DNA of 64,000 nucleotides from Mesodorylaimus sp. YZB2_4 (Eukaryota > Nematoda > Enoplea > Dorylaimida > Dorylaimidae): positions 372,001 to 436,000 of the forward strand of contig JASANH010000554.1 of assembly GCA_030248295.1 (NCBI GenBank). Reading direction: 5' to 3'. The notes below the pieces were generated by a model, which ran no database searches, was not told the DNA's origin, and was given only the letters and a program-made list of their open reading frames with translations. Made by a program: the position numbers and the translations under genes. This document shows positions 9,522 to 57,151 of the stretch, piece by piece. How positions within the stretch are numbered: the stretch's first letter is position 1; each line of letters opens with the position of its first letter.

Positions 9522-9753
9522 TCCTTGCACTGCTCCATTGGTGTAGTCGAGGTAGTTCCCTCTCGGTTGTACACACCATCACTGTTCCTATTCCTTCCCA
9601 TTTCTTACCCTTTCACAATTCCCTCAGCTTGCTGTTTCGAATTGCTAATGCGCAGAGTCGAGCGATTGGTGAGTGTTCACTTGCATACCCGTTCCATTCA
9701 ACCCGTAGATCCGAACTTGTGTTGATTATAACTCAAACACGAGCTCGAGTCTG
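9522..9753. repeat. direct duplicate block, copy 1
   Basis: This block starts TCCTTGCACTGCTCC, contains GTAGTCGAGGTAGTTCCCTC and ends with GTAGATCCGAACTTGTGT. All three recur in the same order at 10589-10784. Copy 1 has about 45 extra bases in its middle, including a GTGAGTGTTC stretch. The copies lie about 1.07 kb apart in the same orientation. Confidence 0.75.
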
Positions 9754-10262
9754 GGGTGGATTGTGACGAGGTGCATCGACGGTGACTTCGAGTGAGTATA
9801 TTATTCGAACTGATTTTGATTTTCTGGTGATCTCATGTGCTCGTCTCGGCTAGATTCCACGGCGTTACGTATTCAGCTATCATTGGTGTTCTGTAAGCCG
9901 GTGCACCTTGGTTACGACAACTGATTAGCTTTTCTTCATTTCTTGACTCCGAATCGTCGGGTGAGCTTTCATCACCGAAAAACCAATTGCACTTCAAAAC
10001 AGCAAAAATACTGTACATGAGATGCAAAAATGCAGAAACTCACAGCGCGCGCAAACACGCATTTAGTGCACGTATTGTAGGAAGTAGGTTGATCGAATGA
10101 CATTTGCGAGTAATCAGTTTTTGGTGCCAGTCACCGAACGTGGCACCACGATCGCGAATTGGCTCGGTTAATGAACCACGCTGCTCGCTCGGCCACGTTC
10201 TCTGCGTGTTGACCGTGAGACCTTGAAATTGAAAAGGAGCCAAAACGATGTTGTATAGGAGT

Positions 10263-13700: not shown

Positions 13701-16700
13701 CAATCTTAGATGTTTTTGATGGCCTTGTGTTTTTCTTTTGTGCATGCTAAAGTGGTAATCGAAGTAAAATCGAGGAGCCAGGTGGGAAAATGAACATGCT
13801 ATTTTCTCCTTGGCTACGGGATAAAGGAAGAGAGGATATTTATTTTCTGGCTCTGTTCATGACCAGATAGGTGTTTGATGGGTGGATAGTCGAGTGGCTC
13901 GTGTCTTGGTCGCCAGTTGGAGAGGCAGCGGGGGCGATAGGTGGTTGGGGAGAGGAGGAAAGGGGAGTTGGAGAGCAGAGGAGGCATGAACTGTTTTGGG
14001 AGACGAATTAAAGTAAGATTTGAAGTGGAAATGGTGAGAATGGAGATTGAGATGTTGTGGGTGCAAGTTAGATGGTATCGCTTCGGATCTCTGCTGTAGA
14101 CTTCTGCAGCTAGGGTTGGCTGGGAATACCGTAAGATGTAATTCCATAGATACCTGCTTTTTGTTTCCCATAAGTCTAAAATGCGCTGGACAGCATTGTC
14201 ATTGAGCATGATACTGTCTTGTTTGGTGCAAGAGCTTTTAATCGCACTCTAATTATGAGCTCGCTAAACTACTTAGTATGGATCGCAGAGAAACGGATCA
14301 ACCAGCGAGTAGATCAAGAACGCATGAGTCAGTATGAGCACATGAGGAGTGCTTGTTTGGCGGATGATTGAATCATTGACAGAGTGCACGAGTGCCTTTC
14401 TGAAAACGTGCTTTGTGTGTCGTAGGAAATAGCAAAATCTTCGATCAGTCATTTTCTTGGTGATCCATGTTTAAGAGGACCATCTGGCATGTGACGTGGT
14501 TTTCTTTTAGATTCGCCATAATCACTCCCTCACTCGACTGAATCGACGATGATCTGACGCTGGGTAAGCAAAAGCACAAGGAGGAAAATGTTTGATTTTG
14601 CACATTAATATTGATATGTTATTGTAACTTTTTATGCTTGTTTGCCGAAATCGCACGTTTTGCTTTTTTTAAAGTGCTGCCATTTGCCAAACAGGTGAGT
14701 GTCGAATGTCATTGGTAGTAGTGTATGTGATATGATGTAAACGTGCATTGCGGACACCGAGGGAGGACGAATGACGCACGTGGTGAGGTAGTAAGTTTTA
14801 TAGTTCAGAACTTCACCTGTGGGGGAAACTGTATAACTTACTAGCTTGCCTCGTGCGCTGTTCAATCGACGATCAGAAGAGTTTGTTGGTCAAAAAGATC
14901 AGAAACTGGTAAAAACTGATTGGCACTAGATGTGGTTGTATTCTGTGTTAGGTATGAGTTGTTGGAGTTTACTGGCTCAAACTTTTTGTTGTGCTTCTAA
15001 AAGTGAAATGTGCGCAGTGAAAATGAGTGTATTTTGTGGTCGAACTATGCACGTTAATGCACTTGCAGGCGAGGCAAAGCAAGGTTGGAAATGATCAAGC
15101 CCGGAACTAGAATCCTGCATATCCTAAAAGCAAAAACATAGCCTTGGTAGTCAAAATGCAAAGTATGAAATGAACAGAGCATTCGAGCAGCCGAGCATAG
15201 TTCCAGTTCCGAATGCAGACTGGTAAGCAATAACTCCTGCGCCTAGGGGCTCTAATTCTTGCCTCAACATGGCTGGTGTCCTGCAAATCGTATGAGCCCG
15301 TTTCGCACTGCGCCCCTGTCAGCACTTGGCACACATGTTCAACTCGTAGGCCTGATCGATATGCGCCTGCGCACGAGAAGAGGCCTTGGTTCAGGGTCAG
15401 TCACAACAGCCATTCTCGCTCTCATCTCAGAGCTATCGCCTGGCCCTCTTGCCCGTTTTTATCTTCACGTGATGCCATGGTCGTCTGGGATGGCAGTGTT
15501 TGGGCTTGTTATGTAAGACGGCCTTTTTATATGCACATGGCTCATTGGTGTCATTGGTGTCATGGGTGGATGGTCGGTGCGATCATGAGACAACCAGTGC
15601 CACCCACGGCGCCGGGTTACAGCCGTCGCTCGTGGGCTGTACGGCCACTAGCCAGCCAATATGTTGAGATAGTTCGCCCTTGCCGTCTGCTCGGAAGTTA
15701 TAATCGCCCAGACGGATGGCGGGTTGCGCTTGTTTGAATGTTTGAGTTGAAACAGGTTGGCACCCACAACCAGCCAGACTACTTGGGCTGGGTTAAGCTT
15801 TTTTATTCATGAGTATAGAAGTGAACAGCGCGACGAATCAGGCAATTATTATTTCTAAATTCTGTTCAGACGCGGCAACCAGCTCGTTCCATTGTGTCAC
15901 TTTAGGCCACGATCTACTGTATTATCGAACATATGAGCAGAACAGGTACCAGTATACTCTTCATTTTTCTCAGCCCCAGTTTCAGGTGCTCTTTAGGTTT
16001 CATATCTGCTAGAAAAACGTGAATGTGAAGATTCACCCCACGAGTTATGGCACAAAGGATATCCGTTCCCTGAGACCCAAACTTGTGAGTGTAATGAGCG
16101 TCATGGGTTTTGGGCCTCAGGAACAGGTGTTTACACTTTCGCACGGTGATATGCTGAGTAGGTAAGGTATATATATATATTTTATTACAAATTATTATGT
16201 ACCTTGTGATATACCTTGTTGCCGCATCACGACGCCCTTCGATTGTGGTTGCTCACTTTTCTGCAGCACTGTGCACCTCCAGCCCCAAATTTTACTGATA
16301 TATCACTGTGTGATAAAAACATTTTCTTCTGATAATCTGTTATAACTTTGAATTTATATTTTATGCGTCAATTTTTAAACAGAATTATGCAGCACCAATG
16401 TGATGCGGATGGTAAATTATAGCATAATATAATCATGAGCTGCAAGTTTATGTTACATTATCCTTTTATCTTTTCCATAATGCTTTATTTGGTTAGTGCT
16501 GAAGATTTACTAAAAGTATTAATTGCGTCATGCAGTGAACATACTGTGAATGGTCCTTTGTACCCAGGATATTTGGAGATCGACAGTATTTCGAATTCAT
16601 CACTTGCATGACAATCCTGGGATAAAGAAAAATGGTTTGTCGGCAAAATACTGGATGTTTAATTTTTCACGGTTTTTATGCAGCATAATTTGAATTTGAA

Positions 16701-41058: not shown

Positions 41059-44000
41059 ATGCCACACGCGATCGGCGGGAAACGTGCTGTAATGACGCCC
41101 GAGAAAAAGGCAGCATTGAAAGCGTTTATTATGAAACAGAAGCAGAAGAAGAAGGAAGGTAAGTGAGGAATTATGAGGTCGCAACCCTGGCTCAGGGACC
41201 CCTGTTGATCTGCAGGTTGAACTGTCTGGCGGGAGGCGAGGCAAGACAGGGTAGTGCGTGTATGCGGAAATGGGCCTTGGCTTGTTCTTGGATGCTCATC
41301 ATTTTCAGTGACACCAGCGCAGCGAAGTTCTTGCTGGGCATGCCAACAGGAGCTGTCTTGCTTCCCCGTGGTTTAGCAGTCAAAGGCGTGTGTCGCAGTT
41401 TGCTTAGCAGAGCTGGAGAGGTCGGCCCTGGGTATAACTCTGGCCGTCTGAGAACTTGCCGAAGTGCTCTTCGCGCCTTGAACTCCTGGCGGTGGGTGAT
41501 TCACCCTTCAGTCCCCTTAGTCGATTAACGAGGAGAGGCCTCATGGGGCGGGAGGGTCTCGAATCCGGGCTCCCATACGGGTAGAGATAGATCGGGATCA
41601 ATTTTTTCAAGATCAGGGGCCAGTTTCACAATCAGCTAGGACATGTCCTAAAGTTAGGACAATCAAATCGCAATGATGTAAGATAGGACTTACGGTGTCC
41701 AAATATTTAGGACATGTCCTAGGCGATTGTGAAACTGGCTCCAGGTTCCCGACCTATCCCCACACTGGGCACGGGCTGGGTATGGTCACCCAATGGGATA
41801 ACCACCGCCATCGCGGGGTGCGACTAGCACGCGCTGTTGCCCGCCATGACCGTAGTCGATGGGAACACAGGTCACCTAACAAGCCCCGTACCCCGCGGGA
41901 AAAGGGTTGAAAATAGACCTCTCCTGAAGTGACCAGGATAAGTGAAAAAATCCCAGCAGGAGGGACTGTGCGCGTAGGATGAGGACCAGGAGGTCCGAGT
42001 ATAATTTTTATGGACTGGGAAGAATCTGATAATGTAAAAATGGGTGGAAAAGTTGATGAGAGATAAATCAGAATGAATGAACTACGTGTAGCTGTGAAAG
42101 ATTGCCCGCTAGTTGCTAGTTGCTATTTTACCTCAGCCAAGCACTTTCCAGTGCACTTAAACGGCGGGTACACAGAAACATAAAGATTAACGTCCAAAGA
42201 ACAAAGAAGAAAAAAACTAAAACTTGGTCACCGAAACATGTTGTTTGAATTTAGAAAACGACCCTATCACAACATCATATGGTAACGTTTTCTCATCTCT
42301 ATTCCACAAGTTCTTGATCACCGAATATTCAAAACTTTGCCGATATGCTGATTTCCAGAGTCCAGGCACAATGAGGTGATGTGGCTGTTTGTTACGCAAA
42401 CTTCGCCTTGACCCCTCACCGCCCAGACCTCTAGCGCCGTCGTTAGCAAAATCCACCTCCACAATATGCTTAAAACGACGATTCGGATAAGCTGCGATGC
42501 CATTGTAAAACTTGAAAAACTGATGTAGCTTTGCATGATCACGACGCACGGACAGAGCACTCCAACCAAGGACAGATAAAACTGCGTCATACGGCGTGCA
42601 CCAGTCGTTGAGAATGCATCTTGCGGCGTATTTTTGAGCTCGCTCAAGATCGTCGATGAGGTACTGCAATGTCGGTGACCACGCGCAGCTACCATACTCA
42701 AGGCGAGGGAGAACGCAATTGCTGTAAACTGTAGATAAAACACTTGACGCAAACTTGCCAAATTTTCTCCTAAATGCACCAATCATCCTACGAGCAGCAT
42801 TAGCAGTAGACTGACAATGATCGATAAAATCCAGCCGTGATGACAATAAAACACCCAAATACTGAACAGACTCGGAGAATGCAATACGAGTGCCAAGTAG
42901 ATCCACGACTGGTTGTCGAGCAAGGGCCTTTGAGTGCAAGCGAAATAAGCAGCCTTGCGTTTTGGACAAATTAAAATCGAGCTTCAAATTGGCTATGTGA
43001 TCGGCAATAAAATTGATCGCAGGCTGGAGTTTCTGGTCTAAATCCGATAAATCACATGCAGGAGAGACCAGTGCTAAATCGTCAGCATATGCCTGCAATA
43101 AACAGTCTGGAAAAGCTGTTTCAAATCTCTTCAACAGTGGATCAATAAAAGCAATGAAAAGAAGCGGAGCTAAGACGGATCCTTGAGGGACACCACTGGG
43201 AACATCGACAGTTCGAGAAGAACAGTTATTAACCACTTTAAACTGTGTTCGACCAGTTAAATATGACGCGAGCCAACGCAGTAATCGTGGGGACAGCCGA
43301 TGCTCCTGATTGCTCCTGACAGCCCTGACAGCCGATGCTCCTGATGCTCCTGACAGTCCGCTGCTTGGCCGCGGTGAAGTTATCGCAGTCCGATGCTCAC
43401 TGGCGATGGACGATCCACCCTTCATTCCCCTTCTATTGTGTCAAATCGAACCCGAGTCCAACTCTTCGATAAGCGGACGTAGGCGATGCGACCGAGAGGC
43501 TAGCGTGCTGTAATGGAGGCAAACTCACCAGTCTTATCTTATAGCCCCCTCGAAACTGAGAACTCACTTGAAATTATGCGAATCCAGCACGTCGTAATAG
43601 TACATCATTTTACACTTATGTGTCATCGGCAAGGAAAAGTCGAAAGTATGCGACTAGTGATGAATCTGATGAACCACATTCGCGTCAGTCGGATAACGCC
43701 ACTGGAAAATATAAGTACCAGTGCGCATAAAGCGATGGAAAACCTGAAAGAAAGGAAGTAGATCAGTATTATCTCTTCACCGAACAATCGATAGATCACT
43801 ATATATATAGCAACTATGTAACGATAGGTCGGGATCGGGGTCACGTCAGGAGGGGTCAAATCCCGACATCGTTATTAGCAATCGATCGTTTATATCGATT
43901 ACATCTAATTAATCAAAGGACAGAAAGAAATCGAATCCAGGTGGATCTCTCATCAAGGGTGGACTTGCATTCTACACCATCAAAATGGGCAGATAGTTGA

Positions 44001-47000
44001 AACTTCATTCAAAGTCAGCTTTTAACGTGCTGTAGTGGAGGCAAACTGAACGGTCGGTGGGGCAAAACCTCTGGCAGGAGCAGCAGTAAGAAATACACTT
44101 GCAGCTGAAACATCAGCTGGAGTGGTTGACGCTCGCTAGCAGGGGACATCGATATTTCTCTTCCACTCGCCCATAGGCCTCTCGACTGCGAGGATTACAA
44201 TTACAATAGGGTTATATAAGTTTGCGAGAGGGGCCAAAACCGATTACCTCTTGGGTTGGGGCGGCGGGGGTGGAAAAGTAATTATGGGAAAGATTTTTGG
44301 GTGTTCGGCCGCGGTGAATAATGGATGGAAAAAGGGAGGTGTGTAATTTAAAATTTTGTATTTTAGAGGAGGAGCAAGACGAGGCATTGCGGAATGAGCG
44401 TCAACGATTGGCGGAGAAGAAGTTACGTGATCAGCATACTTTGGAGGAAGTCAATAGTCAGGTAGGAGAGGTGTTTATGGAATCTCGGGAAAGAAAGACA
44501 ATTCTGCGTTTGGGAATACTTTTAGATCGCTCAACTGGAGAAGAAGTTGGCTGAGTTCAAGCAAGAAAAGCACGATTTGTTTGCTCAGTTGAAAAAAGTG
44601 CTTCATCAAGAAGACGAGCAGCGGAAACGTATTCAACAGATTCAGCAACAGCACGCCAAGGATGCCAGGTATGAAATTGAGCCAATGATATAGGCATATC
44701 TGGTCCAATTTTAAAACACCTGTTTGCACCTGTCGTTTGTGTTTAGTGAAGTGCTGGCCAAAGTTGGGCCGGCCGCACCGCCATTGCCATTGTTGGGTGC
44801 GAGTGGATCGAGTCCATGCGAGCAGGAGTTGACCCAGATGGCCAGCCAACAAGCGCATGTGCAGCAGTTGGGTGCTGGTGGCCAGCTGCAGCAGCTGACT
44901 CCGCCGACTGTGATGACTAGTGGCACGTCGCCGATCGGCGGTGGCGTTGGGCCCGTTTCGGTTATTTCTGGATTGCCGGGGGTGAGTGGCGATGGCCATG
45001 TTTTTGCTGTGTCTGTGGTTACCTGGGAGTGTAACTAGATTTTTAGGTGTAGGCTGGGTGACTGCAGATGGCAAGGCTTTCCGGAGAGCGTTGGTCGGTC
45101 TTTGCTAGCAAAGTGAGATGCAGGCAGTTTGAGCCAGGTGGGTAGGTGGACGTCTGCCTCTCAGGCTGGATCACTCGCGAGAGCGCATATCCGCGTTTGG
45201 TCGAAATGCTAATGGCAGTACTAGAATGGTTCGTAGACAGAGATGGTAATGAAATATTCGTTTTTTGCAGACTAAACGTCAGCGATCGCCGTCGCCGTCG
45301 ACGCCATGTTCGACCAAGGAACCAGCGCCGTATTCTGCATTTTTCTCCTCTCCCAAACGAATGGCTACACCGTATCAGAGTAAGTGCGGGGCCTTAGATT
45401 GGGGGGTTTGTGATGCGGGCAATGTGGTGAGGACTGCTGTGGACTAGTGTGCGAAGGTCGAAGGGATCTACTCCTCTTAGAATTGCAGATACTGTATATA
45501 CGTGTCCCAAGCGTGTGTACGTGACGCTGTGTCTGTTGGGTGGGTTATTGCATATCTTGCTGGGGGAACTCTGAGCGATATTGAATCGAAGGGCTTCCAG
45601 TTTAGATATTGTGGCCTTTTCAGGATCTCCATATCAAGGTTCCGGGTTCGGTCAAGAAATGCATTCGCCGACTGGGGTCTCATCGGTGGCTTCCCATCGG
45701 GCTCAGCAGCAGGCGTCAGTTGCGGCGTCGATTGCAGGTGTGGGGGCGGTTGGTGGCAGTGCTCTGTTGTCACCTGGTGCAGTTGGTATTGGATTAAGCG
45801 GGGGTGCGTCGAATTTTCCGCCCTACTCACCGCAAGGTATATTGGGTCAGCCAAGTGGAAGCGGTGGTGGAGCTGCGGCTGCGGGTATTATGCAGCAGGT
45901 CAGAGGGCCGTTTCGACCACCCCATGATCTGCGAGCACAAATTGGCGCTGGAGGGCCGTCGCACGGGCCACACTTGGGTTCGGTAAGAGGTGCTACCAGT
46001 ATTTATTGTTAGTTACCAATGGTATAGGGCAATGGTGGCTACTGTGCTTTACGCATTTGTGGGCTGGGGCCAGAGTCCTGCATGGGTACCCGTACCCGTA
46101 CTCATACCCGTACCCGGCGGAAAATTTCTGGGAAATAAAACTGCAGTACAGAGCATTTTCAGGTAGAAAACTTTGAAACAAGGTAGAAGAAAAGATGAAC
46201 GAGTATTTCTGAGCTTCTGAGAGGGGGCCGAGGGAAAAAAGATTTGTACTTGTATATGACAGATATGCACCAGTGCAACAACCTTGACTCTTTGCAGGAT
46301 CCAAGTCACTTACACTCTTAGGTAAGGCGGTCCCTCAGATTAGGACAGCAATGTCGCTATTATGTAGGATGGGACTTTCTTGTATGCATGTCCTGCAATT
46401 CACGATCAGACACGCCTCATCAAACTGGCTGCTGCACACAAACCAGCTTGTTTTATCTGCAGTAGTTGTTGTTGACCTCTGCATACAAGCTACACTAGCG
46501 CTCAAATGAAAAGCACGTTTGGAAGCAGAGTCACGAATCTAGGTTCAATATCATAGATCACCTGCTCATTCCTCATTCCTTATCAAGTTAAACTTGGTTA
46601 CTCTCTCCAACAGGAATGCAGTTTCGTTCAGAGTTTTACACTGTCAGGTTGTTGTCAGCTTCAGGCTTTCAAGTTTAGATTGAGACATCTATTCCCAAAG
46701 GAACAAGAAAACCAATGCATTACTCAAAATAGACATTATTCAGGCTTTTAGCGCTAAAGCATGAGGCTCAGACTACTGCTAAGTCTTTTAAGTCTTTAAT
46801 CTTACGATAGTGAATAAACTTTTAAATAAAAATTGATCGAGTTTCCTTGAAAACTCTGGTTTTCTGTAATTATTTTCATGAATTGATTATTTTTTTGTTT
46901 TTGTACTCCATTCGAGCATTTATCGAAAAACCGGGTACGGGTATGGGTATGGGTACGTTTTTTGAAAAATTACGGGTACGGGTATGGGTACGGGTACGGG

Positions 47001-47970
47001 AAGGGTACGATTTTCATACTCGTGCAGGACTCTGGCTGGAGCCTATTCTGTAGATTTCAATGGGTTATACGTCACGATGATATGATTTCAGTGTCTGTTT
47101 CTTGGACCAACACTAGCCGAGCTTAAGGTTTTTGTAGGAAAAAACTACCAAATATTAGTTGCATTTAAATTTATTTTTTTAAAGGTTCTCGCTCTCCCAA
47201 AGATTTATTTGTTGAGAATCAATAGTGTAATCCAACTCCCCCTTTGTTTGTCACTAGTGAACACACCACTGCAGAAGTGGGGCCTATACTGTGAGGGGGC
47301 AGCAAGTGCACGATGCTGTAAATACCTTTCTCATCACAGGAACTACAAGGAGCAAAGAGGCTGGTCTGTTTTCAGAATCCAATGCAGCGCTCACCTGGCC
47401 CGCACGTGTTGCCGTCTGGTATTCCAGTTATTGCGCCTCAGAAAAGGGTGAGTGTGTGGAGTGTGAAGTGTTGGTCAAGTAGCATGTGACAAGCAAGCGC
47501 TCGAAAATCTGAGCAAAGAAGTCTATAAGCGTGGGAAGACTTGACGGCGCATTTGCGGGCTCATGTTTCACCAAGCTGAAGCCGTCATCATAGTACTGTA
47601 CATACTATATACATAGTACTGTACATAGTACATTTAGTGTATGTGCCTGCTGCATTTGTCATGATGCGTGGTCATTAGTGTCTTAGCGAGTGAGTATAAG
47701 TTGTGCACTTATAATGCTTCCCCAAATGCTACGGTCTGTCCACAGTCTATACTCGTATTATCGGTTTGTGGTTTTCAGATGGGCAGTATAACGAGCGGAT
47801 ATCCAGTGCACAAACCTACGCACGCTCAACAGCCGCACGCATTTCAGCAGCAGAGGGTATGCCACGAATTTTTTGCTCGTATAGATTGTCTGGACTTCAG
47901 GGCTTTATTTTAGGCATTTTTCAATCCGAGAGGCAATCCATTTCCGCAGCCGGGCCATCGCTACATGTAG
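41059..47970 (+). CDS. GPS2: GPS2 orthologue, NCoR/SMRT corepressor subunit (9 exons)
   Basis: GPS2 is a subunit of the nuclear NCoR/SMRT-HDAC3 corepressor complex and also restrains JNK and ubiquitin signalling in vertebrates. Exons are 41059-41158, 44367-44461, 44526-44668, 44747-44981, 45271-45379, 45624-45982, 47376-47447, 47779-47856 and 47914-47970; phases join to 415 aa (human 327). Residues about 20-112 form a charged coiled coil ending in LEKKLAEFKQEKHDLFAQLK and KVLHQEDEQRKR, the strongest family match. The rest is Gln/Gly/Ser/Pro-rich and disordered. The C-terminus is AFFNPRGNPFPQPGHRYM, comparable to the vertebrate QNPRFYHK end. The start ATG is the first after the TTTTAG acceptor 20 nt upstream. 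Intron 1 (3.2 kb) is loaded with SINE, LINE and MITE insertions, and intron 6 with a hAT-like element. Confidence 0.9.
41370..41600 (+). mobile_element. tRNA-derived SINE (family 2) in GPS2 intron 1
   Basis: The plus strand starts CCCGTGGTTTAGCAG, then GGCGTGTGTCGCAGTTTGC and CTGAGAACTTGCCG. The block order matches 3930-4148 (-). A related minus-strand piece follows at 41745-41930. Confidence 0.55.
41617..41741. mobile_element. 125-bp palindromic MITE with 3-bp TSD
   Basis: Termini GGGCCAGTTTCACAATC and GATTGTGAAACTGGCTC are inverted repeats, each followed inward by TAGGACATGTCCTA-type palindromes. CAG flanks both sides. The size and 3-bp duplication fit a PIF/Harbinger-type MITE, but the assignment is tentative. 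Confidence 0.6.
42170..43310 (-). mobile_element. 5'-truncated LINE with intact RT C-terminal ORF, in GPS2 intron 1
   Basis: The minus-strand ORF is open from about 43310 to its stop at 42217. It shows RT motifs SGVPQGSVLAPLLFIAFIDP, the catalytic YADD with LQAYADDLALVS, then LGVLLSSRLDFIDH, the LERAQKYAARCILNDW block and an FEYSVIKNLWN ending. This is the palm and thumb half of a Jockey/CR1-type reverse transcriptase. The endonuclease domain and the N-terminal RT are missing. The absence of frameshifts suggests a fairly recent insertion. It is antisense to GPS2. Confidence 0.85.
43817..43876. mobile_element. 60-bp solo palindrome of the TAACGATAGG MITE termini
   Basis: TAACGATAGGTCGGGATC is followed within 60 bp by the inverted end CCCGACATCGTTA. 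It looks like an internally deleted relative of 36905-37201. No clear target duplication. Confidence 0.55.
46071..47034. mobile_element. hAT-like TIR element with GGGTAC subterminal repeats, GPS2 intron 6
   Basis: The left terminus CAGAGTCCTGCATGGGTA and the right terminus (CTCGTGCAGGACTCTG) are inverted. They are flanked by GCTGGGGC (46063-46070) and GCTGGAGC (47035-47042), an 8-bp duplication with one mismatch. Next to each end are arrays of GGGTACGGGTATGGGTACG-like units in inverted orientation. Length is 964 bp, with no transposase ORF. CAGAGTCCTGCA is typical of hAT termini. Confidence 0.8.
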
Positions 47971-48654
47971 TGCGGCGGGGGTCTGTGTGTACTTGAGGGA
48001 GCAGATTGGTCAGTTAGTTTTGTGCAGGAGTATTTATGGGCTGAAATGTTGAAATGTGGCGAGGATAGTGGCGTTTTCTTTTGGCCTGTGGTGGTTTTTG
48101 GCATCTACTTATTATGGGCTGTATAGACTGGCTGGGTGTTGGGGTGCACAAGCGAATACTCGGTTCAATGGCTTTCTAACTTATGACTGTTTCGTTGGTT
48201 GACCAGCATTGCGTTTCGCGGTTCAGAAGCAGCTAATTTTGATTTCTGCCGTTGTTTTGACCGATATTAACATTTAGATGGTTGCTTTTTGATGAATGCA
48301 ATCTTTATCGACTTTGACAAGTGCGGATATGTTTGAATTTGGCGCGGATGAGCGAGGTAATTATGATGGTCAGGTAAGTTGTGCTGTCATGAGTGGATTC
48401 ACAACTCTGTGTGCGCGGCGTGTCTGAGAGGAGGGGTTATAGAAAATCGATTGATCATTTTCAGGAAGGGTTAGAGGCAGACAGGCCATCGAAGCTTGTC
48501 GGTTTTCCCGTATTGAGGTGTTTTGGGATAAGCTATGTGAATCGATCAGTTGCAGACGTGCGCCGAAGTGAACAGCAGTAACGGCCGTTGAAACAATGGG
48601 GGTAGGCAAGATTATGAATGAAATGACCGTTTTGTCTGTGGTATGTTGCTTTTC

Positions 48655-48721
48655 AGCGCATGATGAAGACATTTAACCGCCCCAGGCATAATTTTGTTGA
48701 TGAGTGGTCCCCCTGATCCTT
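48655..48721 (+). ncRNA. box C/D snoRNA copy 1
   Basis: Box C ATGATGA at 48660-48666, guide TAACCGCCC ending at box D' (CAGG), box C' TTGATGA and box D CTGA at 48713-48716. The 3' splice site AG is at 48785-48786, 70 nt after box D. Box-to-box length is 57 nt. One base in the C'-D spacer differs from the other copies (GAGTGG). Confidence 0.8.
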
Positions 48722-48874
48722 ATTTTTTAATGCAAATAAGGAAACCGCTGTGCTTTGAGTTGCCATTATCTTTTCTTCAATTATAGGTCACTTGATCGAT
48801 AACAGAGGGAGTGGTTGTTCATCGAATAGCGCAAGGTATGCAAAAACTTGTTCGTGACGACTTGAAAATTTTTT

Positions 48875-48941
48875 GTGAAGTGATGATCAAATATTACCGC
48901 CCCAGGCATAACTGTTTTGATGATTGGTCCCACTGATCGAC
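48875..48941 (+). ncRNA. box C/D snoRNA copy 2
   Basis: Box C GTGATGA at 48880-48886, guide TTACCGCCC, D' CAGG, C' TTGATGA and D CTGA at 48933-48936. The acceptor AG is at 49002-49003, 67 nt downstream. It lies alone in the intron 48836-49003. Confidence 0.82.
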
Positions 48942-49121
48942 TCCGGCTGATGGCGGAACTTCCCATTCTCCTTTATTGTAATTGACCAAGATTTCCTTTT
49001 CAGGGTGCTAACCATTTTATCGATCGACCAGCGTTTCCATCATGAATAAACAACTTTCTTGCGACATCTACAGGTAGATATGAAAATTTATGTTATTTTA
49101 AAAACCCCGAAGTTTCCTTGA

Positions 49122-49187
49122 GCAACGTGATGACCTAAATTTACCGCCCAGGCATAATTGTTTTGATGATTGGTCTCTCTGATTGCC
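49122..49187 (+). ncRNA. box C/D snoRNA copy 3
   Basis: Box C GTGATGA at 49127-49133, C' TTGATGA and D CTGA at 49179-49182. A short terminal stem GCAA/TTGC directly brackets boxes C and D. This copy has lost one C of the guide or D' run (CCGCCCAGG), so its pairing register may be shifted. The acceptor after the long pyrimidine tract is at about 49268. Confidence 0.8.
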
Positions 49188-49642
49188 TATCTATGTACTA
49201 CTGTTGTTGCAAAACTTTCTGCATGCATAGAATTTTTGTTATGACACCTTTTTCTTTTTTTTGGGAAGAAGGTGCCTCAGTTTGGCGATTTCGTTATGGG
49301 ATGGACGTGAGTCAGGCTTGGGTAAGGTAAATATATCCCCTTCTAGACTGGGAAACTTTCTCGTAAACATGATACGCATGGTTGAGGGTTCTTTATTCTG
49401 AGGATACCATGGGGCTGTAATTCCATCCCGTACTTCCGATTTGAGTTCAAGATTTAACTGTACGGGACCAATGAGGTTTTCCCTTCTAGGTTACAGCCGC
49501 GATGCAGTGTGGAGGCTCCCAAGAACTACAGACAGTAGGAGTACGTCTGCGGTGACTAGTAGATATCCTGGTCGTCGATGCGTGAACACTGGCTGGAGTG
49601 ACGGTACGTTCTGACGATGCCTAGCAAGAGGTCTTTGCTTTG

Positions 49643-49709
49643 GTGAAGTGATGTGCAAGTCTTACCGCCCCAGACATAATCTTATTGATGATTGGTCCCT
49701 CTGATCTAC
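49643..49709 (+). ncRNA. box C/D snoRNA copy 4
   Basis: Box C GTGATGT at 49648-49654 (last base off consensus), guide TTACCGCCC, D' CAGA, C' TTGATGA and D CTGA at 49701-49704. The acceptor TTTGTTTTAG ends at 49770, 66 nt after box D. Confidence 0.8.
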
Positions 49710-49897
49710 AAATTATCAATGTTAGGACCACGCTGAGTCCGCTAAAGCTTCATGTCGTTTTTTGTTTTAGGAATCATGTGTTCGATTGGAACAATCTACC
49801 ACTGCGCTCTCAAAGACTCGGAGCTCCCAGCCGATAATAAACAGGAGTAAGTAAGGTACGTCATTTATAGAATGGTTGACTGTTGCAGATTTAGCTG

Positions 49898-49963
49898 CGA
49901 AAATGATGTACAAGTTTACCGCCCCAGGCATAAGTGTTTTGATGATTGGTCCTTCTGATTCAG
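49898..49963 (+). ncRNA. box C/D snoRNA copy 5
   Basis: Box C ATGATGT at 49903-49909, guide TTTACCGCCC, D' CAGG, C' TTGATGA and D CTGA at 49955-49958. A 3-bp GAA/TTC stem lies outside the boxes. The acceptor is at 50036-50037, 79 nt downstream. Confidence 0.8.
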
Positions 49964-50192
49964 AATTTATTCGTGCAGCGGACGCAAGGAAATTCCAGTG
50001 ATGTTACTCTTTCTGATAAGAAATGTTCTTGCTATAGGGAAAGGAACCCCGGTAGAAAAGAAGACGACTTGGGATCGTGTATTTGTCTGGTCGAATCGTA
50101 TGGAATCGACGGCTAAGCACTAATACACTAATACAATACGATAACCTAATCAGGTAACTACTCAGCTGGAACTGGTTAGTTATAGAGTGTTA

Positions 50193-50259
50193 TCATAATG
50201 ATGGAAAAGTTTTACCGCCCCAGACATAATTTCTTTGATGATTGGTCCCTCTGACTGTG
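50193..50259 (+). ncRNA. box C/D snoRNA copy 6
   Basis: Box C ATGATGG at 50198-50204, guide TTTACCGCCC, D' CAGA, C' TTGATGA and D CTGA at 50251-50254. A terminal stem TCATA/TGTGA (one G-U) forms outside. The acceptor is at 50324-50325, 71 nt downstream, in the intron 50154-50325. Confidence 0.82.
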
Positions 50260-50435
50260 ACAAGGCTGAGTGTGCTGCCTGTTGAGACTTGTTGCGGGTA
50301 GCTGATAGCAGAGGTTTCTTTTCAGGCATACTCTGCATATTCGCATGGCTCGATTCGTGCGTTAACAAATGAATTAAATGATCTAGAACATGTGAGTGTT
50401 GAATTTTTACAGCTTTTAAAACATGAACCACATTA

Positions 50436-50503
50436 CTCGCATGATGAGGTGTGTTACCGCCCCAGGCATAAGCTAGTTGATGATTGGTCCCCGTCTGATG
50501 AAA
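50436..50503 (+). ncRNA. box C/D snoRNA copy 7
   Basis: Box C ATGATGA at 50441-50447, guide TTACCGCCC, D' CAGG, C' TTGATGA and D CTGA at 50495-50498. The acceptor TTTTTCTAG ends at 50565, 67 nt after box D. It lies in the intron 50392-50565. Confidence 0.82.
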
Positions 50504-50979
50504 TCATTTGAAGGGTTAAATTGGAGCGTGCTAGCATGTGTTGAAGTCGGGTTTGCTTTTTCTAGGACTGGTTGGCCTGTAATGGACGATTCAAGCAAGT
50601 GATACTTGAAAGCATGTTATTTTGGCACAATTATTGTTAATTCCATTTGTGCCATTCGTTTCAAAACTTACAATATGGTACAGTTGGAAAACAGTGAAAT
50701 GGTGCAATGTTCGGGGTAGTCCAGCCACCAGTGCGAGGGTGGCTAGACGCGAGGGTTTCGCAGCAAGACAGCCCTCGCCATCTTCGGAAACCTCTGAGAG
50801 CTTCTGGCGCTTACATTCCGTCCAGTGTCTGCAGAGCTATTTGCTCTTGCTGTTAGGCAAGAACTGTGGGTCAATCGTTTGGTAGTTTGAAATGTTGACC
50901 TCTTCTGACAAGTACGGGTAATACTGCTGTAGCGTTGGATATTGTTCGAGTCCTGAAAGATAAGGCGAGTGACTGTCGC

Positions 50980-50985
50980 AATAAA
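50980..50985 (+). terminator. poly(A) signal AATAAA of snoRNA host transcript
   Basis: AATAAA lies about 415 nt after the last acceptor of the snoRNA host transcript. The reading is positional only. Confidence 0.35.
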
Positions 50986-51000
50986 ATACATTCTGGTCCC

Positions 51001-52450
51001 AGCTGTCGCCATGGATAATCCAGCCTAACACGCCTACTCACAAGGGAACATCGCCGACCGTCAAGTCAAACTTCGCAAAACCAAAAATTTGGTAAAACAT
51101 GATTGTTAATTTGTGTTCCTTAGCCCTCGAGTGCGCTGTATACAGTATGCAGTGCTCGGCTATTGGCAAGGTATGGCATGACATGATATACTGATTGTGT
51201 AACGACCATTCGTCGCCGTTGGCAGCCCAGAATAGGCCTGATAAAATGTCACTACGGAAAAGTGATGAGGAGTAGAGGATACAGCCCCTTCCACGGAGGC
51301 TGGTATGTCCATGTTATAGACCCTATGCAAACAGCCAGCTATTTACTACTACCCCAGGGAATATGTACATACAGAACACATGAATACCTCATGTCAGTCT
51401 AGTGTCAGAACACATGACATCGCAGTAAATCATGAGTCTCCCTTATAATGCGACAGGGAACGCTACTTCGGCCGTGTGCTACTTCTGTTTTAGAGACTGC
51501 CCTTGCCCGAACCTTGGTCGTGATCCGCACCAGTACAGGGGCAATACCACGCGACTAACGCGCCCAGGTTTTTAGCGAGAGTATGACAAGTTGAGCCAAA
51601 AATATGTCGTGTGTCTTTGACCTAGCAGGAATAACATCAAATTCTCGGCTGTCTTAAACTTTTTGAAAATAAGAGCAATAGATGACGATCATTGTCATTC
51701 TAGTTATCTCACGACCTGAAAGGGATATCGAGTTGAACGCTCATGGGAGAGTGCACACTTAGCGTCGCAGGCAGACACTCGCCTGACCCTCGGCCACGAG
51801 CTTTCTACTTTGATCTACTGAAAGACAGATCTAAAAGAAAACCCGCGCTTCCATCGCAAAGTACCCTAATTCGGTTCCCAAAGCTATGAACAGTTGATGG
51901 AAACCCCTGCAGTGTTTCGGAGCTGTTCCATAAGCACAACATTATCATTCAAGACAATGAGTTCGTACATGCGAGAAATCCAGAGTCTATCTGATTCAAC
52001 AAAGTGGCTGTGTGATGTCGAGCGGCAACAAAAGCTGCAAATAATCACTTAAACGAAGCATGATAATGCGGAAACTTTCAATACCAAATTCAGGTCGGTC
52101 TTGTTACTTACATACGAAACCAATCAAAAACTGGTGCTGTGTATGTGCGAGATGAAGGAACTGCTTTGTATGCATACAAATATCTTACAAAGACATAGTT
52201 CACAGTTTCATTGTCAGCAGCGTCAGCTCCATCCCCCACCCGCCATTCGCCCACACATTGCAGGTACTCGTAAAATCATGTGGCAGCACTTGTTTTAGTA
52301 ACGTTCCTCAGGTGTGCATCGTGTCTCGTCTCTACAGTATATGCATTTTTGTCGTTACGCTCTGTCATCACCACATACTAGTAGACAAAAGAAGAATCGA
52401 AAAACCAATTTACTATAGGTGCTGCTACTTTAATCAAACTTCACTTTTTC
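51001..52450. other. no gene recognised
   Basis: I see neither repeats nor exons with family similarity here. The final part leads into the GMP reductase 5' UTR, where an acceptor-like CTTACTTTCAG ends 67 nt before the ATG. Confidence 0.4.
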
Positions 52451-52534
52451 TAACCTCTTACTTTCAGGAAGGCCTCAATTAAATCAGAATCTGGAATAAA
52501 TTTTTGATTCTTTGATTGGAGAAATTCCAGTGAA

Positions 52535-53778
52535 ATGCCTCAAGTCGATACAAATTTGAAACTGGACTTCAAGGACGTCCTCATTCGTCCGGAGCGTACG
52601 GAGCTGAAGTCCCGCACTGATGTAATCTTGGAATGCGAGTACTCATTCGCCCACTCCAAGCAGGCCTACAGGGGCATACCCATCATGGCGTCGAACATGG
52701 ACTCGGTGGGCACGCTGGACATGGCACGGGCGTTGGCCAAGTACGACCTGTTTACAACCGTCTACGATCACTGCCCCAAAGAAGACTGGCTCAAGCTGAA
52801 GCAAGAACAAACCAACGGGCTGAACATATGGTCCAAGATTGCACTGAGTTCCGGAATAGGCGATGAGAAGTACGCTGAAACCTTGCACCTACTGGAAGAA
52901 GTGCCTGAACTGAAATACGTGCTCTTCGATGTGGCCAACGGGCACATGCGTAAATTTGTCGACTTCATTCGCCGAGCCCGCGAAGCCTTGCCTCGCCACG
53001 TGCTGATCGCGGGCAATGTGGGCACACCTGAAACGACCGAGGATCTGATCCATGCTGGCGCCGATATTGTCAAGGTGAGCTGGTGACCACAGCGCTGCCA
53101 TGACAGTAAAGCGTTCTTTGAAACTCTCAGGTCGGAATTGGAGGCGGCAGTGTGTGCACGACGAGGAAAATGACCGGAGTCGGCTACCCGCAGTTGTCGG
53201 TGAGTGTCACGAATCAGTGCACTGAGAACTATGTGCATCGCCATGAGTGAGTTCTAGGCGATTCTGGAATGCGGCAAAATAGCGCATGATGTTGGTGGGC
53301 ATATAATATCCGACGGTGGATGCACGTGAGTCGCAGTTTTGCAAACTTGACTGTTGCAACAAGCAGACCATCCATCGTTTCCGATGTCAGGTGTCCGGGC
53401 GACATCGCCAAGGCATTCGCCGCCGGTACCGACTTTGTCATGCTTGGAGGTATGCTGGCTGGTCACGATCAAAGCGAGGGAGCCGTCATCGAGCAAAATG
53501 GCCAGCGTTTCAAGCGTTTTTATGGGTCCAGCAGCAAGACAGCCATGGAGAAATATGACGGGGAGGTAGCCCCGTATCGAGCCACTGAAGGAAAACTGGT
53601 GCAGGTTCCTTACAGGGGAGATATCAAAAATACGATCCAACAGATTTTCGGCGGACTGCGATCAGTGTGCACTTACACAGGGGCCAGGAGACTGCAGGAT
53701 TTGAGTGAGGTGGCCACTTTTGTCCGTGTTACCTCGCAAATGAACAATGTTTTTTCCGATTATGTTGCATCGGAATAA
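52535..53778 (+). CDS. GMPR: GMP reductase (4 exons)
   Basis: A cytosolic purine-salvage enzyme: GMP plus NADPH gives IMP, ammonia and NADP+. Exons are 52535-53074, 53131-53199, 53258-53325 and 53391-53778, with introns of only 56-65 bp, giving 354 aa. The IMPDH/GMPR TIM barrel is clear: LKLDFKDVLIRPERTELKSR at the N-terminus, ASNMDSVGT, DVANGHMRKFVDF, AGNVGTPETTEDLI, GADIVKVGIGGGSVCTTR with the catalytic Cys near residue 189, GVGYPQLSAI, ISDGGCTCPGD, FVMLGGMLAGH, a YRATEGK segment and GGLRSVCTYTGA. No CBS domains are present, separating it from IMPDH. The ATG gives the typical MP[RQ]xDxxLKLDFKDVL start. It has unusual positions for the family: SGIGDEKY, GGGS where GPGS is common, and EVAPYRATEGK. 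An AATAAA lies at 54100-54105. Confidence 0.95.
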
Positions 53779-55028: not shown

Positions 55029-57151
55029 CTAAATTCTAGCGGACACTTTGATAGAAAACGGAAACGCTCTTAAATTGAAAGCTTCTTTCAAGTCAAAATC
55101 CGTTGTGTATTTCACGCCTTCCTTGGGTTCCAATCGAAGTTGCTGCAGCAAACGGGCGAATGCCAGGAACATGAAATTTTTTGATAATTGTTCACCCGGG
55201 CAAATTCGACGGCCAAAACCGAATGGAGCGAACGATGGGGGTGATCTCACCTGCCCGTGCTCGTCGATAAAGTGCAGCCGAGGGTTGAACTCCAGCGGGT
55301 CTCGCCAATACTCAGGGTCCGTGTGCATGGCGTACGTGTTCGGCATCACAAGAGCCCCTTTGGGCACGAAATAGTCACCTGCAGAGAACAGTTGCACAGA
55401 AGACCACGACCCTCCTGTAAATGCATGTTACCAATTTTTGTGTCGTTAGTTGGCGCATGTGCCAAGCCGAGCGGGCTGACTGGGCGGAGGCGCAGACATT
55501 CCAAAATGAAGGCCTCAACCAAAGGCAGTTTTGACCGATCATTTAAATTTGGAGCCCGATTCCCGATCGCCTATAGAGAGAAATTACAAACACAAATTGC
55601 GCTGCAAGGCGAGCTCTCCTGCTTGATTAATTCCCACCCCTTTGATTTCTTGATAGCATTCCTCCTGAATGTCAGGGTACAATACCAAATAGAGTAGCAC
55701 CCACACGCACGTCCTGCTGGCCGGGTCCACGTCATCTGAACAGAACGAGGTATGGAGTGGAGTTCTCTGGCTCGCCTGGTGGAGGAAGCTTACCGCTGAA
55801 AAAGTGCATAATTATCCAGGCCAAATATTGATCAGCCAGCTTTTCCGCTTGCTCCGGGCACTCCTTTTTTAACGTTGCCTGTTCTTGCAGCAGTGCATCG
55901 TAGAAGTCTCGTATGTGACCTGCAACAGTGGCATATGCCCGGGCAATGCATCAAGTGATCAGCGTACCTTCCACAAATGTCTTGCGGTTCTCTTCCAGCT
56001 GCTTCAGTCTGAAACGCCCGAAGGCCTGTTCAGAATCGACCACGTGTTTGACGGCTGGTATCAATTTCAGCGGCAAGAAATCGCCGCAGGGTATGAGGTC
56101 GTAGGTCAGACAATCCACAAATTCTTGCAGGCCCTTATCGTTTTCCTTTTTTATGTTCAGGAATTCTGGGTCGTCTATTTCATATCTGAAAATGACTGTT
56201 CTTGTTCTTCATCATGCTGCGTGGAAAAAACCTGTGTCACTTACTTTTTTCTGCAGGCCAAGAGTGTCAGGATATTGTATACGATGTGGCAGATGTGCAA
56301 TTCTGAATCGACATCGTCGCTTTTTTTTAGCATGCTCTGCACTGTCGAATCAACGGACTCGTGCACAATTTTTTCCAAACATTCTGTGCCCGATGTGAGC
56401 CTGTGAAAATTGATTAGTTGAGGACAACTGTGCTGAAGAAATGCCAGAACTATCTTACTTGATGCACTTAGAAATTACTTTCCTAAAACATGAAGAAACT
56501 TTACCAAATGTTGATGTAAAGAGCGAAACTCAGCAACAAAATGTCTATTATGTACAATTATTTTTTTCTGGAGAACAATGGGAAAGTCCAATCAGTGGGT
56601 ACACAGCCAGTCATTGTGGCACTGTGCATGTTCTGCGGATAATTAGAAACCAATGAAGTCATGCCATGCGCACAATGTTGTTATCCGCTGTAACCAGTGC
56701 TAGCTCGTAAATGCTTACCTGTGAAATACCAGAAGCGGGTTGTATTTTGACAATGCGATGTCCTGATATCCATTGCATATCAAGTTCAAAACAGGGCTGT
56801 TTGGCCGACAGCTGAATGTGGTTTGCTGGAACACGGACTTGGCTAATTCATATTTTGTGATGCAGACGGCAGGTGTGTGGGCGAAGAACATCGTCACGGG
56901 GTCGCCATATTTCTTGTACTGCTCGTAAAAGACTTCATAATTGTGCTTGTCTTTCGGAAAGTCTGCACAAAACAGAATGTAGCGCGGGATGAGGCTTGGA
57001 ATGGGGCTATCCTAGGCCACTTACGCAAAAAATTGCCAATAAAAGGCAGGGGAAATGGGCCGGGGGGCATTCGAAACCAAAGGATGTAAAGTCGCACCAC
57101 GAACTGAATGATAATCACTGCGATCAGGGCGAGCCAAAACTGAGGATCCAT
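55029..57151 (-). CDS. cytochrome P450, CYP2-clan-like (8 exons)
   Basis: A microsomal haem-thiolate monooxygenase-type protein. Minus-strand exons are 57151-57025, 56962-56719, 56400-56245, 56185-55968, 55919-55794, 55735-55638, 55570-55432 and 55378-55029. Phases join to 485 aa, and an in-frame ATG at 57181 would give 495. An N-terminal anchor (WLALIAVIIIQFVVRLYILW) is followed by the Pro-rich hinge MPPGPFPLPFIGNFL. The helix K motif ECLR is at about 347-350. The haem loop FGFGRRICPG has Cys at about 429. The I-helix reads FFSGDDVDPAS: Asp294 aligns with the AGxDT Asp but the Thr is Pro. The overall pattern (PPGPxPLPxIGN, EAFILECLR) is CYP2-clan-like, but I cannot name a family. Introns range from 48 bp to 318 bp, and six of the seven are under 70 bp. 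Confidence 0.9.

Follow-up and report, generated by a model that had tools for sequence, protein, structure and literature searches.

A probable UHG-type locus with seven U31-type box C/D snoRNA copies in the nematode Mesodorylaimus

Seven box C/D copies at one locus

The window analysed here, a 64,000-nt stretch of the genome of Mesodorylaimus sp. YZB2_4, carries seven box C/D units, each 56-58 nt long, at 48660-50498 on the + strand. Copy 1, from its box C ATGATGA to its box D CTGA, occupies 48660-48716, and copies 2 to 7 follow on the same strand at 48880-48936, 49127-49182, 49648-49704, 49903-49958, 50198-50254 and 50441-50498. A core of approximately 41-45 nt is present seven times, all on the + strand, and the interval from the start of box C to the end of box D measures 57, 57, 56, 57, 56, 57 and 58 nt in copies 1-7. 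The distances between successive starts (220, 246, 522, 254, 296 and 242) are uneven, and the array is therefore no simple tandem repeat. An earlier, sequence-only reading of this DNA had described seven recurrences outside a simple tandem and a C-to-D length of 56-58 nt, and our measurements agree on both counts, with spacings of 220-522 and the length in 7/7 copies. The neighbouring genes encode an IMPDH/GMP reductase domain (52508-53086, +) and a cytochrome P450 exon (55029-55427, -), and a 407-aa ORF at 42217-43440 on the - strand contains a reverse transcriptase domain (RVT_1, E 5.2e-16).

Box C reads RTGATG in all seven copies, with A, T or G as the seventh base, and box D (CTGA) and C′ (TTGATGA) are likewise found in 7/7, as the same reading had stated. 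D′ is degenerate, being CATA and not CTGA; the ceN63 consensus similarly has CAUA at this position. Across an alignment that extends slightly beyond boxes C and D at either end, all seven copies agree at 35 of 67 columns. The near-fixed parts are box C RTGATG, the guide TTACCGCCCCAG, CATAA, TTGATGA and box D (identity 0.90-1.00), while the two linkers reach only 0.41 and 0.52 and the core as a whole 0.74. Measured in 10-nt steps, identity in the flanking introns is 0.19-0.37, where the background is 0.26. The flanks could differ this much because the duplications are old, or because the snoRNA was copied by itself into other introns. A pattern of conserved boxes and guide beside diverged linkers and flanks could also be imitated by gene conversion acting on the core.

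A terminal stem was considered as support for a snoRNA and rejected, own flanks folding scarcely better than flanks swapped between copies (-1.46 versus -1.03 kcal/mol for the near terminal stem, and -10.2 versus -9.6 kcal/mol with 30-nt flanks). A stable terminal stem has been tied to the expression of human C/D snoRNAs in the results reported in PMC10234308; compared with these, such a stem is not evident in the array.

Searches for additional copies returned the same locus. A sequence model built on the seven copies scores them at 57.4-70.1 bits in the window, a match by construction, and finds no further copy there, the next best candidate on either strand reaching 7.1 bits (E 0.35). A scan of 46300-51100 for other C/D snoRNAs of like architecture gave nine rows, all of them known copies, with copies 1 and 2 each read twice. 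Across the 145-Mb genome an eighth copy was not detected, within the limits of pattern and DNA searches. The pattern search recovered six of the seven copies (copy 3 absent) plus two sites elsewhere with two mismatches, against 11 hits for a reversed control. The DNA search gave five hits, all at the array locus, and missed copies 1 and 7; a stray diverged copy might therefore have escaped it.

RNA family and the predicted 28S target of the guide

At gathering thresholds, a default Rfam search of the window reports only let-7 and mir-10, and nothing at the array. These mir-10 family and let-7 precursors lie approximately 5 kb apart on the + strand (9692-9767 and 14778-14854) and score slightly above their gathering scores; the precursor at 9692-9767 looks mir-100-like. 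When matches were instead ranked by E value over 46500-52500, 24 of 26 fell on the seven copies, the other two being weak and located elsewhere. Counted to E 5, so that some of the 24 are weak, the matches comprise ceN63 on 7 copies, SNORD31 on 7, DdR13 on 6, snoU31b on 3 and sR55 on 1, with those to ceN63, SNORD31 and snoU31b all on the + strand. At E up to 0.05, ceN63 matches six of the seven copies and SNORD31 three. The best ceN63 match is copy 2 (35.7 bits, E 1e-4, gathering score 65) and the best SNORD31 match is copy 6 (27.3 bits, E 0.0064, gathering score 40). As no match reaches its gathering score, we name the copies U31-type and do not call them members by Rfam's curated cut-off. 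The RNA-family search that the sequence-only reading had suggested for these loci thus finds ceN63 and SNORD31 at 7/7 by E value, all below the gathering score. The box C/D identity which that reading proposed is supported by boxes C, C′ and D in every copy, the U31/ceN63 matches and the conserved core. It had lacked a family and a target: the comparisons support the U31/SNORD31/ceN63 type and a guide that can pair with the P-loop of the 28S.

The likeness to C. elegans ceN63 (Rfam RF01646) is one of order, UUACCGCCCCAGGCAUAA being followed by UGAUGAUUGGU in both, and the agreement spans the guide and CAUAA up to UGAUGAUUGGU. Unlike ceN63, the array copies have a shorter C′-D interval. With SNORD31/U31 (RF00089) and yeast snR67, grouped in clan CL00053, the copies share the guide ACCGCCCCAG and its register to D′, and hence the same predicted P-loop G. 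Besides scoring below the gathering threshold, they differ from SNORD31/U31 in having CATA instead of CUGA as D′, and in being seven, in a host where we recognised no snoRNA of another kind. U31 is multi-copy in Drosophila as well. U31 is listed at human Gm4166, with snR67 as its yeast counterpart, in PMC3511168.

For a target we used the 28S rRNA of the same genome (L003, 4943-5985, RF02543 at 970.8 bits); the register test covered approximately 1.8 kb at the 18S and the last 1043 nt of the 28S, the 5′ 28S not being found by a pattern search of the genome. The guide upstream of D′ (TACCGCCCCAG) is complementary to CTGGGGCGGTA in the P-loop of this 28S, with no mismatch. Contiguous Watson-Crick pairing extends over 11 nt in five copies (2, 4, 5, 6 and 7), 10 nt in copy 1 and only 5 nt in register in copy 3, whose guide lacks one C of CCCC. 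Runs as long were reached in 1-2 of 100 resampled rRNAs (first-order Markov) for the six intact guides, and in 100/100 for copy 3. In box C/D guides the methylated base is the partner of the fifth base upstream of D′. In six of the seven copies that base lies opposite the second G of GGGG, in the same register as the SNORD31 consensus; copy 3 fails here too. By a looser score, the six intact guides obtain 14.5-16.3 at the P-loop, and only copies 2 and 6 exceed all 30 plain shuffles made per copy, which leaves the strict in-register match and homology as the basis of the case. A general guide on the D side was rejected in 6/7 copies, its runs of 5-6 nt being reached by 79-100 of 100 resampled rRNAs.

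The genomic 28S copies showed a feature of their own. Those in L002 (minus strand, 7461-7019 and 3730-3125) and in L010 near 4137 break at one point, approximately position 600 of the LSU segment, before TTAGTTTTACCC. One of the two pieces in L002 starts at 601 and the other ends at 606, and they lie 3.3 kb apart in reverse order; in C791, unrelated sequence adjoins a 28S piece starting at 599. A site-specific 28S insertion element is a possible cause.

Introns and exons of the putative host gene

Each copy is framed by splice-like sites, the 5′ site 44-58 nt upstream of box C and the 3′ site 66-86 nt downstream of box D in 7/7, giving predicted introns of 167-195 nt. The 5′ splice site of proposed intron 1 (48602-48786) scores lowest among the seven (5.4), and a competing 3′ splice-like site ends at 48656, just before box C. 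Introns 2 (48836-49003) and 3 (49074-49268) have alternative 3′ sites at 49073, of equal score, and at 49271 respectively. They are followed by introns 4 (49604-49770), 5 (49856-50037, or with the same score to 50020), 6 (50154-50325) and 7 (50392-50565), all on the + strand. The sites were scored with hand-made matrices based on the general animal consensus. Both splice tests were passed by 1.09% of 20,000 random window positions, compared with 7/7 copies, at thresholds equal to the weakest observed scores and thus set on the same data; multiplying this rate over the seven copies therefore has illustrative value only. The placement of one copy in each intron, already proposed in the sequence-only reading, is supported by these predicted sites.

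The spacing is doubled between copies 3 and 4, where a good pair of splice-like sites encloses a stretch of about the usual intron length. This gap probably holds a further intron with no recognisable snoRNA, at 49327-49489 (+) or with its 3′ site at 49496, whose splice scores are 9.3 and 8.0 or 8.5. A hidden snoRNA within 49327-49496 was sought and rejected: the model matches nothing there up to E 10, and rRNA complementarity is at most 8 nt. Within it, GGGACCAAT at 49464-49472 is the exact complement of ATTGGTCCC, which precedes box D in 4/7 copies, possibly by chance. The earlier picture of the array stands as to copies, boxes and introns, and is corrected by this probable extra intron, by the one-base deletion in the core of copy 3, and by the CATA form of D′.

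The proposed last exon (50566-50995, +) was given a 3′ end directly downstream of the poly(A)-type signal (AATAAA or ATTAAA) found at 50980. Upstream, a scan of 47401-48602 for a 5′ TOP found one pyrimidine run of 8 or more, at 48074. The longest ORF across the joined exons is 70 aa, a chance length equalled in 93 of 300 first-order Markov resamplings; for exons 2-7 alone the figure is 52/300. The earlier statement that the exons hold no continuing reading frame is in keeping with this. Together, the predicted introns and exons support a non-coding host with one snoRNA per intron, and it is from these signals that we infer its transcription and splicing.

The 5′ distances also fit those reported in PMC2780460, mainly 41-60 nt between snoRNA and 5′ splice site in Neurospora and similar in human. 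On the 3′ side, an optimum of approximately 50 nt upstream of the branch point is given in PMC8162545. PMC10234308 places most expressed human snoRNAs 100 nt or more away from the branch point, and spacing of the array's type is therefore not universal.

Proposed working, origin and comparison with known arrays

We consider it highly likely that a UHG-type non-coding host gene occupies the locus and that its seven U31-type snoRNAs guide 2′-O-methylation of a P-loop G. In this model the host would be transcribed from the + strand with seven short introns (167-195 nt), each carrying one U31/SNORD31/ceN63-type snoRNA. The introns would be spliced and debranched, and exonucleases would trim them to the C/D core covered by snoRNP proteins. 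The guide TACCGCCCCAG would then pair with CTGGGGCGGTA of the 28S P-loop, and fibrillarin would methylate GGGG at its second G (L003 position 5189), whose human homologue is Gm4166. Duplication within one host gene is the most likely source of the seven copies, and the most likely reason for their retention is output, which their number would raise. For human C/D families, PMC8178906 reports that in 59.5% a single host gene encodes every expressed member, and it favours recombination inside the host as the source of the duplicates.

There are other possible explanations for the array. The locus could be a true U31-type gene that depends on one or two copies for the methylation, the rest being redundant relics that drift. 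The missing guide base of copy 3, the probable intron with no recognisable snoRNA and the weak stems would all suit such decay. The boxes and guide, however, are 0.90-1.00 identical where the linkers have fallen to 0.41-0.52 and the flanks lie at or near background, and six of the seven guides are intact, which makes general decay unlikely.

Another explanation concerns copy 3 alone, in which a one-base deletion in the core turns CCCC into CCC in the guide. Its D-adjacent sequence TGATTGGTCTCT makes a perfect 12-nt match to 28S AGAGACCAATCA, part of a variable segment close to the 3′ end of that rRNA. Copy 3 may have left the P-loop and use this D-adjacent guide on the variable segment, with the adenosine at L003 5857 as the predicted methylation site. 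The match directly adjoins box D and was reached by 0/100 resampled rRNAs, and its target is found in three genomic 28S copies. Against this, 14 guides were tested, the D side of copy 3 being just one of them; C′ accounts for three of the 12 bases, so that only nine are left between C′ and D; and the 28S aligns poorly around the target. Additionally, CCCC to CCC is a common type of assembly error, and an error in that C run would remove half of the story. We regard retargeting of copy 3 as quite improbable. It is scarcely credible that the units are not snoRNAs at all but a dispersed repeat or transposon-derived unit with chance C/D-like motifs: several copies lie close together with diverged flanks, but the genome searches, within their limits, yielded no copy outside the locus, the ceN63/U31 match holds in order and register, and the splice geometry is regular.

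The preferred reading, a dedicated host of U31-type snoRNAs, has parallels in the Drosophila Uhg genes Uhg1 and Uhg4: a non-coding host, one snoRNA per intron and a few introns empty. PMC4430873 reports 16 snoRNAs in Uhg1, five rRNA positions targeted by Uhg1 snoRNAs alone and, among the fly Uhg genes, two introns that contain no snoRNA. Uhg4 has seven snoRNAs (PMC9710044), yet those named there are of different kinds, whereas the recognised copies of the array are all of one kind. The array also resembles SNORD115/SNORD116, where, according to PMC11028025 and PMC8162545, the introns of a non-coding transcript carry one C/D snoRNA many times over. Unlike the array, SNORD115/SNORD116 are large imprinted tandem repeats of homogenised copies; here there are only seven copies, and the flanks are fully diverged. 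The array had earlier been called an unusual amplification. C/D families sharing one host are well documented, so the arrangement itself is familiar; what is distinctive is that all recognised copies are of one kind, with fully diverged flanks.

Should copy 3 have been retargeted after all, which we think improbable, the array would be the birthplace of a new rRNA methylation site from a redundant copy. As we read it, the locus offers a clean animal case of a very ancient guide in seven diverged copies, apparently with one dedicated host gene. With its flanks and linkers diverged but its boxes and guide conserved, it lends itself naturally to testing whether multi-copy guides persist for dosage or are simply tolerated. 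The locus is also an example of a U31-type snoRNA that falls below the Rfam threshold, and routine annotation at that threshold would miss the array.
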